This document shows, one piece after another, positions 1 to 5,840 of a stretch of 43,853 nucleotides of DNA (position 1 is the stretch's first letter; the number at the start of each line of letters is the position of its first letter). The notes beneath the pieces were generated by a model. The model searched no databases. It worked only from the letters and a program-made list of their open reading frames with translations, and was not told the DNA's origin. The translations under genes were made by a program, and so were the position numbers. The DNA is from an uncultured Selenomonadales bacterium (GTDB taxonomy: Bacteria > Bacillota > Negativicutes > Selenomonadales > Selenomonadaceae): the NCBI GenBank assembly GCA_946408355.1, contig CAMJRX010000019.1, positions 1 to 43,853 of the forward strand, read 5' to 3'.

Positions 1-59
1 TTGAGAATTTCGTTTTACTTGCTTCTTCTGTTATTCACTTTTAATTTACCAACAATCCC
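1..59 (+). mobile_element. Terminal end of an IS5-family insertion sequence (cut by window edge)
   Basis: The first 59 bases are almost the same as the reverse complement of 17789-17850, which is the transposase 3' end plus terminal inverted repeat of a second IS copy in this window. The reading frame here encodes the last residues of the transposase (ENFVLLASSVIHF then stop), followed by the inverted repeat ending CCAACAATCCC. The flanking TA at 60-61 fits the TA-type target of this IS group. The rest of the element lies outside the window. Confidence 0.8.
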
Positions 60-60
60 T

Positions 61-570
61 AGTCGCGAACTTTTTGCCCTTCGTGAATTTCACAGCGAAG
101 ATCATAGCAAAGATTTTTTGACGCTCGGCTCAATGGGGCATTGCTCCTCGATAGCTTTGGGTGTAGCTCTTCAGCAACCGAAGAAAAAATTTTGGTGCCT
201 CGACGGTGACGGTGCAACTTTGATGCATATGGGAGCAATGACTACGATAGGAGCCGTCAAGCCAAAAAATTTAATTCACATAGTCTTGAACAATGCGGCG
301 CATAAATCAGTTGGCGTACTTCATATTGTAGAAGATAGAATAAATTTTCCAACAATTGCCTTAGCATGTTGCTATGACTTCGCGACAGAGGTAAAATATC
401 CGCAAGAACTAGACGAAAAATTATCGCAGATTAAGAAAAGGGATTGTTTAAGTTTTCTCGAAATAAAATGTGCGCTCGGTTCCAGAAAAAATCTTGGTAG
501 ACCGAACGCAAGTCCTGTAGAAAATAAGCTTAACTTTATGAAAGAATTACAATCAGAGGTTCCGAAATGA
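61..570 (+). pseudogene. aepY: Phosphonopyruvate decarboxylase, C-terminal fragment truncated by an IS
   Basis: This is the C-terminal thiamine-diphosphate-binding half of phosphonopyruvate decarboxylase, which converts phosphonopyruvate to phosphonoacetaldehyde in 2-aminoethylphosphonate synthesis. Visible motifs are SRELF, LTLGSMGHCSSIALG, the cofactor motif DGDGATLMHMGA and a following NN. Only about 170 residues remain, where the family usually has about 380. Similarity begins directly at the IS end (position 61), so the N-terminal half has been displaced. An open frame continues upstream to a TTG at position 1, but that part is IS sequence, so a hybrid protein is formally possible yet unlikely to be active. 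The stop overlaps the ATG at 567, showing that the next gene was translationally coupled to it. The family is recognised with confidence; loss of function is inferred. Confidence 0.8.
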
Positions 571-651
571 TTTACAACTTTACTATTTATCCAATTGAAT
601 GCGTCTATAAAGCTTTATATCTCGCTTTGAGTGAAGCCCTCGATAGCTACC
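567..651 (+). other. Out-of-frame N-terminal segment of the YidC-like/sulfatase gene
   Basis: An ATG at 567 overlaps the aepY stop (ATGA), as coupled genes usually do. It encodes 28 residues (MIYNFTIYPIECVY through LALSEALDSY) that look like the start of a YidC-type membrane domain. This frame meets the 890-residue frame only if one C of the CC at 650-651 is removed. The joined protein then reads DSY-GLALIFLSVITYILMRP, a typical YidC first transmembrane segment. The gene therefore appears to carry a one-base insertion, or the sequence has an error there. Confidence 0.65.
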
Positions 652-3303
652 GGTCTTGCTCTTATTTTTTTGTCCGTCATTACCTATATTTTAATGCGTC
701 CGTTAATGAATTGGGCAGAAAAGTTTCAAGCTGAAGAAAAGAATATTCAAAATGTTTTAGCTCCACAACTTGCCAAGATTAAAGAAAATTTCAGCGGCGC
801 AGAGCAACACAAAAAAATTCAGAGACTGTATAAACGCTACGCTTATCATCCAGTATTAACAATTCGTTCAGCGGCAGGAATAATGTTAAAGTTGCCATTT
901 TTGACGGCAGCATATTTTATGATTGACAACTTGACGAACATTATCGGAGAATCTTGGTGGTTAATTGCTGATTTGTCAAGCCCAGATGAACTTTTGGGCG
1001 GAATTAATCTTTTGCCGATTTTGATGACGGCAATAAACTTAATCGGCATATTTTCGATTAAAGATTTTTCGCGGCGAGAGAAAATTCAGGAGTCATGCAT
1101 TGCATTTTTATTTTTAATATTGCTTTACAATACCCCATCGGCACTTTTGATTTATTGGACGTGCAACAATCTTTGGACGACTTGCGCGATTTTATTCGGT
1201 TCGTTCGTACCAAAAGTCTTTGTATCAGCTCAAGCGCGGTTGAAAAAATTCTTATTGGCGGAGCTTATTCCTTTTGGCTTCTCACTAACACTTTTTATTT
1301 TCATTCCGCTTGATATTTATCTAACCAATGCGGAAGAAATTTGGTTTTCTATTAAAGATATTTTTCCTTATATAGTGCTTGGCGCAATTTTATGTCTCAT
1401 TTTGATTTGTCTAGTTGAAAAATTTTTATCACCAAATGCAAGAAAATATTTTCAACTAATAATTTTTGGATTAACTTTAGGATTTTTCCTGCAGAGCCAT
1501 CTTTTTAATCCGAATTATAAAATTGTAGATTTAGTTCAAACTAATTGGGAAGATTATGCTACAGAAAATTTGATTAATTTTATTATATGGGCGTATTTTG
1601 CATTCGTATTAATTTATTTTGTGAGAAAACATTCGGCTGAAAAAATCCTCGACGCGGGGAAAACACTCTGTTTGATATTGGTTGCTGTTCAAACTTTTTC
1701 ATTGTGCTATGTTGGAGCGAATAATACTCCCAATAAACGCGATTACAATGTTTTGACGACAGCGAATCTTCTCGACGTTTCCTCAAAAGAAAATATTATC
1801 GTATTGGTTCTAGATGCGTTCGACGCGCGCACTTTTGAGGAAATCAATCAAAATGAACCGGAGCTTATCTCTCAGCTTGAAGGCTTTACGTTTTATTCTG
1901 ACGCGGTGTCAATTTTCGGTGAGACAGATTGGTCGATGCCGCAAATGTTAACTGGTAAAGCTTGGGATAATTCACAACCCTATTCGGATTACATCCAAGA
2001 GGCGTGGGATTCTTCTAAACGATTCTATGATATTTTGCGAGAACACAACTATAATATTTCCGTTTACACAGGATTTCATTACGTTGCTAAAAATGCTCCC
2101 GTCGATAATTTACTTAACCAAGAAAAATCTTTAAATATAAATCGCTACACATTGAGTGCACTAGCTAAACTTACTTTGTTCCGTTGTTTGCCCAATTACC
2201 TTAAACAAAGTTTTATAATCGAAAGTGCCGAACTCTGGCGGCAAGAAGAAATTGATGGTGAAATTCAACCTTATTCTGAGGATAATTATCTTTTCTATTC
2301 GCAATTACAAAAAGGATTGACCCTTCACAATGACAAAAATTCTCTTCGGTGGTATCACATTCATGGGGCACATTATCCATTTACAATGACGCGCGATATT
2401 AAGCCAGTTCCTGATGGCAAAGAAACAACGAGATACGAACAATCCGTCGGCGCATTAAAAATTGCTCTGACTTATTTACAACAAATGAAGGAACTAGGAA
2501 TTTACGACAACGCCACAATTTTAATCTTAGCCGATCATGGAGATCACTCGAAAATTGTAACTGATTTTAAATTACCTAATTATGCTAAGCCGTTACCACT
2601 GGTCTTAGTCAAGCAACCAAATGAACATGGTGCGTTAAAAATTTCCGAAACCCCGATCTCTTATTCTCAACTGCAAGCGACAATTTTGAAAAGATTCCCC
2701 GAAGGAGCAAAATTTGGTGAAGATTTTTCCACTAAATCAACTAAAGAAAGACTTTTTAGGATTGTAAGTAATGAAATTGATCATACAATGACAGAATATA
2801 TCGTTGAACCGCGAGCGCAAAATAATTCTTCTTGGCATGAAGTGCGAACATTAAATCGCAAATATAATTATGACCGAAATTACAGTCTAGGAACAATTTT
2901 AACTTCAAAAAATGTAGAACCATATATGATAGACGGCTGGTTAATTTTGCCAGTTCACTCTCCTTTTTTCCAATTTGGTCCTAAGGCCGAAATGCTGTTT
3001 CAAATAAAAAATTTTAATCACGACAAAGATTTGAAGCTAGAAGTTATAGCCATCCAAAATCCTCTTCTCGAAACGGATTCCCAAAGATTCGATATTTACG
3101 TAAATGATACATTTGTTGAAACTTGGGAAATAGACAAGAAGAATATAAAGCAATACGTTGCGATAATACCGCATGAATTACTTAAAGGTGAAAAATTAGA
3201 ATTAAGTTTTAGAATGGTCGTTCCGAGTGGCTCTTCCGTTAATGAAAGCACTCTTAATAATATAACTTTCTTTAGACTTGTTATAAACTATAATCATGAA
3301 TAA
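631..3303 (+). CDS. YidC-like membrane domain fused to a sulfatase/phosphotransferase domain
   Basis: The protein has an N-terminal part of about 210 residues resembling the Oxa1/YidC insertase fold (LYKRYAYHPVLTIRSAAGI, LKLPFLTAAYFM, LADLSSP-like loop, NTPSALLIYWTCNN), about five further membrane segments, then an alkaline-phosphatase/sulfatase-fold domain from about residue 388. The latter keeps its metal and nucleophile motifs: VLVLDAFD, ETDWSMPQMLTG with the candidate threonine nucleophile, HIHGAHYPFT, and LADHGDHS near residue 634. A C-terminal region of about 130 residues looks like a beta-sandwich. The sulfatase half resembles enzymes that transfer phosphoglycerol or phosphoethanolamine outside the membrane. 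With aepY upstream and a TagB-like gene downstream, a role in decorating a surface polymer is inferred. The GTG start at 631 lacks a good ribosome site; the natural start is probably 567 in another frame. The region is AT-richer than the core genes. Confidence 0.75.
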   Translation: MKPSIATGLALIFLSVITYILMRPLMNWAEKFQAEEKNIQNVLAPQLAKIKENFSGAEQHKKIQRLYKRYAYHPVLTIRSAAGIMLKLPFLTAAYFMIDNLTNIIGESWWLIADLSSPDELLGGINLLPILMTAINLIGIFSIKDFSRREKIQESCIAFLFLILLYNTPSALLIYWTCNNLWTTCAILFGSFVPKVFVSAQARLKKFLLAELIPFGFSLTLFIFIPLDIYLTNAEEIWFSIKDIFPYIVLGAILCLILICLVEKFLSPNARKYFQLIIFGLTLGFFLQSHLFNPNYKIVDLVQTNWEDYATENLINFIIWAYFAFVLIYFVRKHSAEKILDAGKTLCLILVAVQTFSLCYVGANNTPNKRDYNVLTTANLLDVSSKENIIVLVLDAFDARTFEEINQNEPELISQLEGFTFYSDAVSIFGETDWSMPQMLTGKAWDNSQPYSDYIQEAWDSSKRFYDILREHNYNISVYTGFHYVAKNAPVDNLLNQEKSLNINRYTLSALAKLTLFRCLPNYLKQSFIIESAELWRQEEIDGEIQPYSEDNYLFYSQLQKGLTLHNDKNSLRWYHIHGAHYPFTMTRDIKPVPDGKETTRYEQSVGALKIALTYLQQMKELGIYDNATILILADHGDHSKIVTDFKLPNYAKPLPLVLVKQPNEHGALKISETPISYSQLQATILKRFPEGAKFGEDFSTKSTKERLFRIVSNEIDHTMTEYIVEPRAQNNSSWHEVRTLNRKYNYDRNYSLGTILTSKNVEPYMIDGWLILPVHSPFFQFGPKAEMLFQIKNFNHDKDLKLEVIAIQNPLLETDSQRFDIYVNDTFVETWEIDKKNIKQYVAIIPHELLKGEKLELSFRMVVPSGSSVNESTLNNITFFRLVINYNHE

Positions 3304-3316
3304 GGAGGAAATCGCG

Positions 3317-4615
3317 TTGAAGGAATTTATTTACTTGACTTTTGTTTGGTGGTTCTTCATACCTTCAGTTGCACATGCTTACCTTGACCCTGGCTCTGGC
3401 AATGCGTTGATTTACATGTTGTTGAGTTTTTTCGGTGCAGTGATTTTCTCGCTTAAAAGTCTTTTTTACAGAATAATTGGTAGAAAAGATTTATTGGAAG
3501 ACGAACAGGCTCTGAGAGAAAATCAACATAATATTGTAATTTTTAACGAAGGGAAAATGTATTGGAATACCTTCCGCCCGATTGTTGAAGCTTTACTCAA
3601 AAAGAATGTAATTTTTTCCTATTACACTATGGATATTAACGACCCTTGCTTGGAAATGGACGAACCGAACATGAATAATTGTTATATCGGCAACGGCACG
3701 CGAGCATTTGCCAAAATTAGCAAACTCAAAGCCGATATTGTTCTTTCGACGACCCCAAACATTGGTACTGAAGGCTACCCTATTTCGCGCTCAAAGTCAA
3801 TTAAAAAATTGGTGCACGTTTTTCACTCTTTTGGTGACTCATCTTATTATCATCGTGGTTCTCTTGATAATTATGATGCAGTTATGTTGGTTGGGGAATT
3901 TGAAAAACCAATTATTCGCAAACTGGAAAATTTGCGTGGCTTACCAGCTAAGGAACTATATGAAGCTGGATTACCTTATTTTGACGTGTTGGCAGAAAAA
4001 AAGAATTTTGTACTAAGTCGAGTCAAGAAAATTTCTGATGCCAAAACAGTTTTAATTGCACCGTCGTGGGGAAAGAAGAGTTGCTTGAACCAATACGGTA
4101 GCAATTTTATTTCGTTGCTAGCGAAAGCAGGCTATCATGTCATAATTCGTCCTCATCCTCAGTCTCTCAAGGTGGAATCGGAAAAGCTCGAACACTTTAA
4201 GGACGAGCTGATCAGCTTCCAAAATGTTGAATGGGATTTTGATATAGACGCTTCGCAATCAATGCAACGTGCAGATATTTTAATTTCGGACATGTCTGGA
4301 ATTCGTATGGATTTTGTCTTACTATACCAAAAACCAATCATCACACTTGAAATACCCTTAGAGAACATGGCAGACTTTGAATTGGCGGACATGGGAGAAT
4401 CGTGGACTGAGAAAAAATTAAGAGAGCTAGGTTATACGCTCGGGAAAGATCAAATTGAAGATCTTCCGAAAATTGTACATGAAACCATAGAAACAAAAAC
4501 TTCGGAAGAGATTATAGCTTTTCGTGAAAAAAATCTTTACAATTATAAATGTTCCGGCGAAGTCATTGCCAAATATCTAATTGAAAACGGACGGCATTTG
4601 AAACAACAAAATTAA
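3317..4615 (+). CDS. CDP-glycerol:glycerophosphate glycerophosphotransferase family protein
   Basis: This 432-residue protein belongs to the TagB/TagF-like family that moves glycerol phosphate from CDP-glycerol onto polymers or lipids at the membrane. It starts with a signal or anchor segment and the AYLDPGSGN motif often seen at the front of these proteins. It then shows VLSTTPNIGT, HVFHSFGDSS, LIAPSWGKKS, IIRPHPQS and the C-terminal LISDMSGIRMDF, the CDP-glycerol-binding core. The TTG at 3317 is chosen because a perfect AAGGAGG lies 8 bases upstream; the ATG at 3296 sits before that site and inside the previous gene. It follows the YidC-sulfatase gene closely and is likely cotranscribed with it. 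The actual acceptor and donor cannot be read from sequence. Confidence 0.85.
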   Translation: MKEFIYLTFVWWFFIPSVAHAYLDPGSGNALIYMLLSFFGAVIFSLKSLFYRIIGRKDLLEDEQALRENQHNIVIFNEGKMYWNTFRPIVEALLKKNVIFSYYTMDINDPCLEMDEPNMNNCYIGNGTRAFAKISKLKADIVLSTTPNIGTEGYPISRSKSIKKLVHVFHSFGDSSYYHRGSLDNYDAVMLVGEFEKPIIRKLENLRGLPAKELYEAGLPYFDVLAEKKNFVLSRVKKISDAKTVLIAPSWGKKSCLNQYGSNFISLLAKAGYHVIIRPHPQSLKVESEKLEHFKDELISFQNVEWDFDIDASQSMQRADILISDMSGIRMDFVLLYQKPIITLEIPLENMADFELADMGESWTEKKLRELGYTLGKDQIEDLPKIVHETIETKTSEEIIAFREKNLYNYKCSGEVIAKYLIENGRHLKQQN

Positions 4616-4765: not shown

Positions 4766-4802
4766 AATCGCTAATCCATTGCGCGGTAGCGATTAATTTT
4801 TG
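4766..4802 (+). terminator. Hairpin with T tract ahead of the cobD-like gene
   Basis: An 8-bp perfect stem (AATCGCTA/TAGCGATT) with a 13-base loop is followed by AATTTTTG. It lies about 150 bases past the glycerophosphotransferase stop and just before the next ribosome site. It can end the upstream operon. A TATAAT at 4734-4739 with only a weak -35 sits upstream, so the hairpin could also be in the leader of the next gene. The 4616-4765 stretch holds nothing else I recognise. Confidence 0.6.
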
Positions 4803-4817
4803 TATGGAGGAAAAAAA

Positions 4818-5840
4818 TTGGAACTCTACGAACACGGCGGGCAAGTTTATAATGCGGCAGGAAATCTTTTGGACGATTGGTTAGACTTCAGCGCGAATAT
4901 AAATCCGCTGGGCTTGTCGGAAAAAATTTTGCACACGTTGACGGAAAATCTTCGCGGCGTGGTAAATTATCCCGATCCAAATGCAACCGAACTTAAACGC
5001 GCCATTTCTCGCCGATATGACGTGACCGAAAAAAATTTGGTTGTGCTCAACGGCGCGGCGGAATTTTTTTATCTTTATTTAAACGTCATGCGCCCCGCCC
5101 GTGTCGTAATTCCTGTACCGAGTTTTTCCGAATATGAACGGGCGGCAAGAGCTGCTAATTGCGACATAAAATATTTTTTCACGAACGCGGCAGAAAATTT
5201 TTCACTCGACGTTGAAAAGCTTCAAGTTAATTCTTCCGATTGCGTTATAATCGGTCGTCCGAACAATCCGACGGGAAATTTAATTTCAACGAAAAAAATT
5301 TTACAGCTCGCCAAAGTTGCAAATGTTATTGTCGACGAGTCTTTTATAGATTTCCTCGACGTTGAATCGGTTAGAGAATTTGTTTCGGAAAAAATTTCTG
5401 TCGTGCAATCGTTGACGAAAATTTTCGCGATACCCGGTTTGCGATTAGGTTTTGCAGTCGTCGAAGAAAATTTAGCGCGGCAATTAAATTTATGTAAAGA
5501 CGTTTGGAACGTAAACTTTTTAGCGCAAAAGGCAGGCGTCGCGGCATTGTCCGATGAAGACTTTTTGCGGCGAACTCGTGCTTGGCTTGAAGTTGAGAAA
5601 AAATTTTTCGTCGAGCGGCTAAATAATCTGCGCGGAGTGAAAGTTTTTTCGCCGACGGTTAATTTTGTTCTGTTCAAACATGAGCAAGCCGAAAAAATTT
5701 TAGCTGAATTGCGCTGTGAAAAAATTTTGCTAAGGAGTTGCGCGAATTTTTTAGGACTAGACAAAAATTATTTGCGTTCGGCGATTCGTTCACGAGAGGA
5801 GAATCTTAAGCTGTTCAATGCTTTGGAAAAAATTTTTTAA
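4818..5840 (+). CDS. cobD: CobD-like threonine-phosphate decarboxylase / PLP aminotransferase
   Basis: This 340-residue fold-type I PLP enzyme resembles CobD, which decarboxylates L-threonine O-3-phosphate to aminopropanol phosphate for the cobalamin nucleotide loop, and is related to histidinol-phosphate aminotransferase. CobD-like features are the opening ELYEHGGQVYNAAG and LDFSANINPLG, then RPNNPTGN, VDESFIDF and the PLP-lysine region SLTKIFAIPGLRLGF. The TTG at 4818 is chosen because GGAGG lies 7 bases upstream and the family motif begins at once. No other cobalamin genes are in the window, so HisC-type activity cannot be excluded. The next gene overlaps it by 23 bases. Confidence 0.75.
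   Translation: MELYEHGGQVYNAAGNLLDDWLDFSANINPLGLSEKILHTLTENLRGVVNYPDPNATELKRAISRRYDVTEKNLVVLNGAAEFFYLYLNVMRPARVVIPVPSFSEYERAARAANCDIKYFFTNAAENFSLDVEKLQVNSSDCVIIGRPNNPTGNLISTKKILQLAKVANVIVDESFIDFLDVESVREFVSEKISVVQSLTKIFAIPGLRLGFAVVEENLARQLNLCKDVWNVNFLAQKAGVAALSDEDFLRRTRAWLEVEKKFFVERLNNLRGVKVFSPTVNFVLFKHEQAEKILAELRCEKILLRSCANFLGLDKNYLRSAIRSREENLKLFNALEKIF

Follow-up and report, generated by a model that had tools for sequence, protein, structure and literature searches.

A YidC-like domain fused to an LtaS/EptA-like outer domain, and a coupled transferase gene that may act with it on surface phosphorus groups

The fusion gene and its neighbors

The DNA analyzed here, called the window throughout, is a stretch of 43,853 nucleotides from an uncultured Selenomonadales bacterium. 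It is an entire contig, and the genome from which it comes is fragmentary (85 contigs, 84% complete). Near the start of its forward strand, which carries all the window genes named below, lies a gene whose product joins a domain resembling YidC/Oxa1 insertases to an extracytoplasmic domain with the alkaline-phosphatase fold. The next gene encodes a TagF-type transferase with a Glyphos_transf domain, here called the partner. As it stands, the fusion open reading frame (ORF) runs from 631 to 3303, begins with GTG, and encodes 890 amino acids arranged as a YidC-like domain, a block of several transmembrane helices, an alkaline-phosphatase-fold transferase domain, and a C-terminal beta domain.

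The YidC/Oxa1-like domain (residues 8-185; 652..1185) matches PF02096 (60KD_IMP) with an E-value of 3.6e-20 and 73 bits against a cut-off of 35, and it carries Tyr19 (685-687) at the position of the groove Lys/Arg of YidC. A predicted block of membrane helices, seen in the AlphaFold2 model, follows at residues 195-364 (1213..1722). The outer domain (residues 385-750; 1783..2880) is supported by conservation in 117 sequences and by Foldseek and VIA matches, and residues 388-687 match PF00884 (Sulfatase) at 28.7 bits against a cut-off of 25. With both profiles above their cut-offs, the fusion of YidC with a phosphotransferase domain that was claimed in a preliminary description of this DNA is borne out. 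Its conserved residues are D395 (1813-1815), T432 (1924-1926), H581 (2371-2373), and D635-H636 (2533-2538). At the C terminus, the model shows strands (2938..3300), with low confidence at residues 744-787; this region is present in three same-genus sequences and absent in the other nine of a 12-sequence fusion alignment.

Comparison with relatives places the start region of the fusion gene at 567..660, where the start codon overlaps the aepY stop codon and the frame is broken within the region. Such a break had been suspected earlier, and the frame that opens at the ATG at 567 indeed loses its match to relatives about 28 codons in. The frame is uninterrupted in the same-genus copies at loci L054, L055, and L068; the intact ORFs encode 904 amino acids in L054 (genome G656) and 905 in L055 (genome G662), L068 has the same protein as L055, and identity to the window protein is 75% for L054 and 61% for L068/L055. 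The break in the window is either a mutation or an assembly error, the two being indistinguishable here. The window bases were left unaltered: the 890-residue frame was used and folded, and intact relatives were included in the alignment.

The preliminary description had also named aepY and a CDP-glycerol-type transferase as neighbors, and both were found. The C-terminal part of aepY (phosphonopyruvate decarboxylase), truncated at the contig end, occupies 1..570 (TIGR03297, 2.4e-60; PF02775). At 204.5 bits, this fragment falls below the full-length TIGR03297 cut-off of 312.5, and it is 76% identical over 169 residues to the full-length aepY product of L054. The partner gene (3296..4615; 439 amino acids) begins inside the fusion ORF and its product matches PF04464 (1.2e-9; 38.1 bits, cut-off 22.1). 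A YLDPGSG motif with a transmembrane helix forms a module at residues 29-75 of the partner (3380..3520).

Recurrence and conservation of the domain pair

Whether the domain pair is unique to the window had been set earlier as a test, and it is not. A profile scan of genome contigs returned at least 596 stretches, 535 of which encode some relative of the query, possibly including YidC-only ones. The best 80 of these at least 596 stretches gave 79 loci, a sample biased toward good matches, and each locus holds at least one fusion ORF. Over all loci examined there were 130 fusion ORFs, and dropping 10 incomplete ones left 120 complete and 116 distinct fusions. Because of the profile E-values, these 116 distinct complete fusions, and the Foldseek matches of the model, the window fusion is not a product of chance. 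Tandem runs of two to five fusion genes occur in 24 of the 79 loci, with five fusions and one partner gene at L094; in 19 loci the run lies at a contig edge.

The 79 loci span Bacillota, Spirochaetia, Verrucomicrobia, Desulfovibrionaceae, and Actinobacteria. The hosts include Selenomonadaceae, Phascolarctobacterium, Lachnospiraceae, Ruminococcaceae, Saccharofermentans, Atopobiaceae, Eggerthellaceae, and others, and many of the loci come from gut and rumen samples according to their record titles. The distribution is patchy. As the sole query, the window sequence found matches in 6 of 398 genomes of the phylum, two of them strong besides its own genome, and in the family sample a single-sequence query found the fusion in 3 of 189 genomes, to which the profile added G376; with so few relatives found by a single sequence, profiles are needed. 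By profile, the full-length fusion is present in 3 of the 398 genomes. In a second family the count is 7 of 150 genomes. A plasmid search yielded one distant transferase, without YidC.

In the outer half, D395 and T432 are conserved in 117 of 117 sequences and H581, D635, and H636 in 116 of 117, in keeping with the intact metal and nucleophile motifs described earlier; PF00884 reaches an E-value of 0.001 in 31 of 38 relatives. In LtaS and EptA the nucleophile is a Thr and the metal ligands are Asp and Asp-His, whereas formylglycine sulfatases have Cys or Ser at the nucleophile position. We equate the conserved residues with those of LtaS by this general pattern and by fold. The best Foldseek matches of the fusion model are PbgA/YejM, LtaP, and MCR-1, and the best fifteen consist of membrane-enzyme domains together with two matches to an unnamed superfamily member from Vibrio. 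The alignment to PbgA (6xlp) covers residues 210-738 at 12.7 A rmsd and is a rough match only. An identity as a sulfatase was rejected on the Thr found at the nucleophile position in all 117 sequences; of the earlier wording "sulfatase-type," the fold survives and the activity label does not, since it is a Pfam fold name and the nucleophile is of the LtaS/EptA kind. The outer half is classed here as a transferase of the LtaS/EptA kind that carries an undescribed module.

For the N-terminal half, PF02096 matches 38 of 38 fusion relatives, and a profile of 12 fusions searched against the PDB matches YidC chains, which we take to be those of E. coli and B. halodurans, at E-values of about 1e-13. 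Helices are predicted in this half of the fold model, and YidC structures are absent from the displayed fold-search matches; because the catalytic domain fills those lists, their absence is no argument against the fold. The earlier reading of the N terminus as YidC therefore stands on the profile matches, the fold search being occupied by the other domain. In the alignment, an Asn of the family faces the Arg in the groove of the E. coli YidC chain, numbered R366 in a published study whose abstract calls a positive residue in the groove strictly conserved (PMC8920935). None of 122 distinct fusions has Lys or Arg at this position (Asn in 88, Ser in 21, Gly in 4, Gln in 3, Tyr in 3, Thr in 2, and His in 1), whereas all 29 ordinary YidCs compared, which come from the genus and class of the window, carry Lys there. 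An ordinary YidC is also encoded in the genome of the window (contig C7), and the YidC half of the fusion is not classed as an insertase.

The partner gene follows the fusion widely. Glyphos_transf is directly adjacent in 49 of the 79 loci and present anywhere in 53; adjacent fusion-partner pairs share a strand in 53 of 54 cases, and 47 of 53 overlap or lie no more than 20 nucleotides apart. The partner profile matched none of 29 ordinary-YidC loci, in control stretches that are shorter (about 3.5 kb). Among the 26 loci that have no partner, 15, in 14 genomes, lie away from a contig edge, and 13 of those 14 genomes carry a partner elsewhere, for which reason such loci were rejected as a refutation of the pairing. 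When the partner was modeled, its nearest solved structures proved to be a capsule multienzyme (8qoy) and, at rank 2, TagF (3l7l).

In five loci, YidC is fused to Glyphos_transf itself (L067 11051-13180; L148 7470-9425; L149 8268-10403; L157 6-2189; L159 6441-8312, the Glyphos half of the last being called by a home-built profile and not by Pfam). All five of these YidC-Glyphos proteins retain the groove Lys. Separate transferase ORFs are present in four of the five loci, and none lies within the examined stretch of L148. L148 and L149 belong to one genome, which also carries a sulfatase-type fusion (L105). A tree of the YidC halves of 26 fusions, 29 ordinary YidCs, and 5 YidC-Glyphos proteins gives each group its own clade; it has no outgroup and thus cannot prove two separate recruitments. 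A phage collection returned three unverified fecal contigs, probably bacterial; all three have transferase matches, and two of them have the YidC-Glyphos form. These two, L157 and L159 (MT838376 and MT836777), are titled "Bacteriophage sp." Besides the YidC-Glyphos gene they contain transferase genes, and they probably represent pieces of bacterial chromosome.

The helix module of the partner is mobile as well. Its residues Y29, D31, P32, and G35 are invariant in 30 of 30 sequences, and the model has a helix at 32-75. The Y(I/L)DP(G/S) helix may belong to the partner, to the transferase (as in L067), or to a small separate protein, as in L148 (near 7232), L149 (near 10607), and L157 (near 2314). 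Further small proteins of this kind occur in L066 (near 12421) and L051 (near 16026), close to transferases, with no YidC found within the examined stretch. No such helix was detected in L150, L158, or L159, or in any of the 29 ordinary-YidC control loci. Four examples of the module, taken from relatives, stay below the cut-off of every Pfam and NCBIfam family and hit nothing beyond weak sub-threshold models, and a literature search for the Y(I/L)DPG motif returned nothing on the module. The swapping of YidC and YIDPG modules between both proteins of the pair suggests, at the level of sequence, that the fusion and its Glyphos_transf partner act together.

Head groups and a candidate mechanism

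A phosphonate context was proposed earlier for this locus. The aepY gene in the window and the phosphoenolpyruvate (PEP) mutase in the sister operon of L054 (TIGR02320, above the curated cut-off) uphold it, as one link of several. The recurrence of neighbors extends to PEP mutase in 11 of the 79 loci and full-length aepY in 9, with both in 8; of 10 aepY matches, one (L082) is weak and partial. A gene for Ppm, fused to a cytidylyltransferase, occurs in L054, L056, and L063. In the genome of the window, contig C29 (L154, 219-437) holds a cytidylyltransferase tail with 84% identity over 73 residues to the enzyme of the L054 operon, which suggests that part of the phosphonate cluster was lost in assembly gaps. 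This tail stands at the contig start, near an ORF that looks transposase-like by eye.

In the lineage of the window the head group would most likely be a C2 phosphonate, for instance aminoethyl- or hydroxyethylphosphonate. Across loci it probably varies, with phosphonates one important case, because some loci have PEP mutase and L130 encodes a glycerol-3-phosphate cytidylyltransferase that passes its curated cut-off. Seven loci have an iron alcohol dehydrogenase cluster near the pair (one member identified), and another such gene follows the PEP mutase gene in L063; the enzyme could make hydroxyethylphosphonate. A reading of L057 as a choline locus was dropped, as it had a resemblance at the gene start only and the scanned neighbor is URO-D.

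Downstream of the pair in the window, at 4800..5840, lies a gene for a CobD-like pyridoxal phosphate (PLP) enzyme of uncertain membership (TIGR01140, 291.7 bits, cut-off 290.55), possibly part of head-group supply. It shares 27% identity with the PLP half of a 600-residue nucleoside triphosphate (NTP)-transferase/PLP fusion in L089, and no such gene is adjacent to the pair in L054 or L055. CobD-like PLP enzymes fused to NTP-transferase occur in L062 (5269-7071) and L089 (8097-9896), and enzymes of this type may lead to an amino-alcohol phosphate such as phosphoethanolamine, and on to its cytidine diphosphate (CDP) form. Radical SAM/SPASM proteins, which may modify the head group, are encoded beside the system in L054 (3217-4257) and L062 (1472-2548); the L054 gene sits between two cytidylyltransferase-domain genes of the phosphonate operon.

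These elements can be assembled, tentatively but as a serious possibility, into a two-protein system that spans the membrane and places cytidylyl-activated phospho- or phosphono-groups on a surface glycan by a relay of loading, crossing, and transfer. A cytidine monophosphate (CMP)-phosphonate would first be made by PEP mutase, AepY, and a cytidylyltransferase, whose genes are seen in the sister genome; this pathway is known in other bacteria. Held at the membrane by its YLDPG helix, the TagF-type partner might then load the group onto a membrane lipid on the cytosolic side. A cytosolic CMP/CDP-dependent transferase and an outer head-group transferase call for an element that crosses the membrane, and the YidC fold sits there; it could offer the loaded lipid a polar path, as a dedicated scramblase or flippase would. 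Finally, to go by its fold and active site, the LtaS/EptA-like outer domain may take the group on Thr432 and pass it to the glycan, and tandem fusion copies beside one partner gene may differ in acceptor specificity. Fusion, recurrence, gene coupling, conserved residues, and lost groove charge are matters of sequence, from which we infer the order of the steps.

That a YidC fold might serve as a lipid conduit instead of an insertase, as the preliminary description had ventured, is plausible and is helped by the loss of the groove Lys/Arg. A preprint reports that Oxa1-family insertases, YidC among them, act as lipid scramblases both in vitro and in simulation (PMC10491306). The boldest version, in which the Oxa1/YidC fold left protein insertion and, its groove charge gone, was rebuilt as a dedicated lipid-head-group conduit within a single-complex machine that loads, flips, and transfers, with the YIDPG helix linking its halves, must be considered somewhat doubtful.

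Several observations weigh against the relay. At L150, the 14.5-kb stretch examined encodes Glyphos_transf and two sulfatase-profile proteins as well as matches to PEP mutase, aepY, NTP-transferase, and transaminase, and no YidC or YIDPG module was found in it; YidC is thus not obligatory, and the route may work without a dedicated one. An NTP-transferase was detected in 26 of the 79 loci by a home-built profile that may take in sugar nucleotidyltransferases (the best sub-threshold NCBIfam models at L057), and 28 loci have any activation gene, leaving 51 that show none within the examined stretch. No PEP mutase was found among the contigs of the window's genome, an assembly that is 84% complete. 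G749 carries the fusion with no partner found in its genome, and 11 further partnerless loci at contig edges lie outside the whole-genome partner count. In favor of the pairing, three of the 398 phylum genomes hold both a full-length fusion and a full-length partner, and no genome of that sample has one without the other; yet the partner profile was built from fusion neighbors, such that two of the three match by construction and G376 is independent. True sulfatases appear among the fold matches at equal Z. Within loci, the YidC halves of paralogs are more alike than the catalytic halves in 36 of 41 pairs from 19 loci (means 77% vs 61%). This would fit a single loader that supplies several outer enzymes; between loci, though, the YidC halves are again the more alike (6683 of 6745 pairs), so the result is weak and may reflect a general difference in rate. 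The loss of groove charge argues for a changed role but stops short of proof, because the charge in E. coli YidC has been reported as dispensable in some contexts if a neighboring residue keeps the groove polar (PMC8920935, as far as consulted).

The same head-group pathway could operate with a YidC-like half that moves no lipid and acts as a structural or assembly module, docking or inserting the helices of the partner and joining the enzymes. This possibility, which we consider doubtful though not far-fetched, would account for the attachment of YidC to either partner depending on the locus, for the greater similarity of YidC halves among paralogs, and for the groove Lys kept in the five YidC-Glyphos proteins. 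In its shortness the YIDPG helix resembles known substrates of YidC. Less easily explained are the loss of the groove charge in all 122 sulfatase-type fusions, the ordinary YidC available for insertion in the window's genome, and the YIDPG helices that stand beside transferases in L051 and L066 with no YidC found within the stretch.

A second arrangement would have the partner decorate a lipid-linked glycan in the cytosol from a CMP- or CDP-linked group, in the manner of LicD, while the outer domain separately uses ordinary phospholipids. Relatives of Glyphos_transf use glycan or teichoic acceptors, to which they transfer polyol-phosphates, the partner's best structural matches are the capsule multienzyme and TagF, and the many loci with no activation gene in the examined stretch would be natural in this case; the tight coupling and overlap of the genes, together with the way YidC and YIDPG modules are swapped between them, favor one shared pathway and make it unlikely. 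A role for the outer domain as a hydrolase, either a sulfatase or a phosphonate monoester hydrolase, in the trimming or recycling of surface groups is improbable, given the invariant Thr where such a reading would have Cys or Ser and the fifteen best Foldseek matches. A chimeric assembly or annotation artifact was suggested by the broken frame and the 85 contigs of the window's genome; for the family it is scarcely conceivable and was rejected, as intact copies exist, 116 complete fusions are distinct, and the fusion is also present in records not titled as metagenome-assembled or uncultured (L084, L085, L116, L124, and L135).

On the relay reading, gut and rumen bacteria that have the fusion and the inner enzyme probably decorate their surfaces with unusual phosphorus groups. 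If the proposal is true, a YidC-fold protein has a job beyond protein insertion, and the system offers a test of whether evolution has made use of the scrambling of lipids that insertases are reported to perform (PMC10491306).

Comparison with known systems

Among the papers listed in literature searches, which largely lack subscription papers, none describes the YidC-phosphotransferase fusion in its title or the opening of its abstract. The closest phosphonate systems are the Pnt clusters with Ppm and PntC, for which CMP-activation has been described and the tailoring that follows is termed enigmatic (PMC6697681, consulted in part). They resemble the present loci in the aepY gene, the Ppm-cytidylyltransferase fusions (L054, L056, and L063), and the logic of CMP-activation; they differ in that neither "YidC" nor "sulfatase" appears in the main text of that paper. 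The gene pair is a concrete candidate for those tailoring steps. In another study, consulted in part, assembly of a phosphonoglycan was proposed to proceed via other enzymes, and the main text likewise contains neither word (PMC8931226).

The TagF/Glyphos_transf polymerases of teichoic acids and capsules share PF04464 with the partner and include its nearest folds, 8qoy and 3l7l. The partner differs from them in its N-terminal YIDPG membrane module and in the coupling of its gene to a YidC fusion. The YidC/Oxa1 insertases share the PF02096 domain, and their PDB chains are matched by profile. In the fusion, by contrast, the groove Lys/Arg is replaced by Asn, Ser, Gly, Gln, Tyr, Thr, or His in 122 of 122 proteins, and the domain is joined to an enzyme and is additional to the ordinary YidC of the window's genome.

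To our knowledge, enzymes of the LtaS/EptA/PbgA type use ordinary phospholipid donors with no coupled cytosolic Glyphos_transf, and we know of none with an N-terminal YidC domain. LtaS/LtaP, EptA/MCR-1, and PbgA/YejM share with the fusion an architecture of membrane helices followed by an outer domain of the alkaline-phosphatase fold, with Thr at the nucleophile position and the D and D-H residues.

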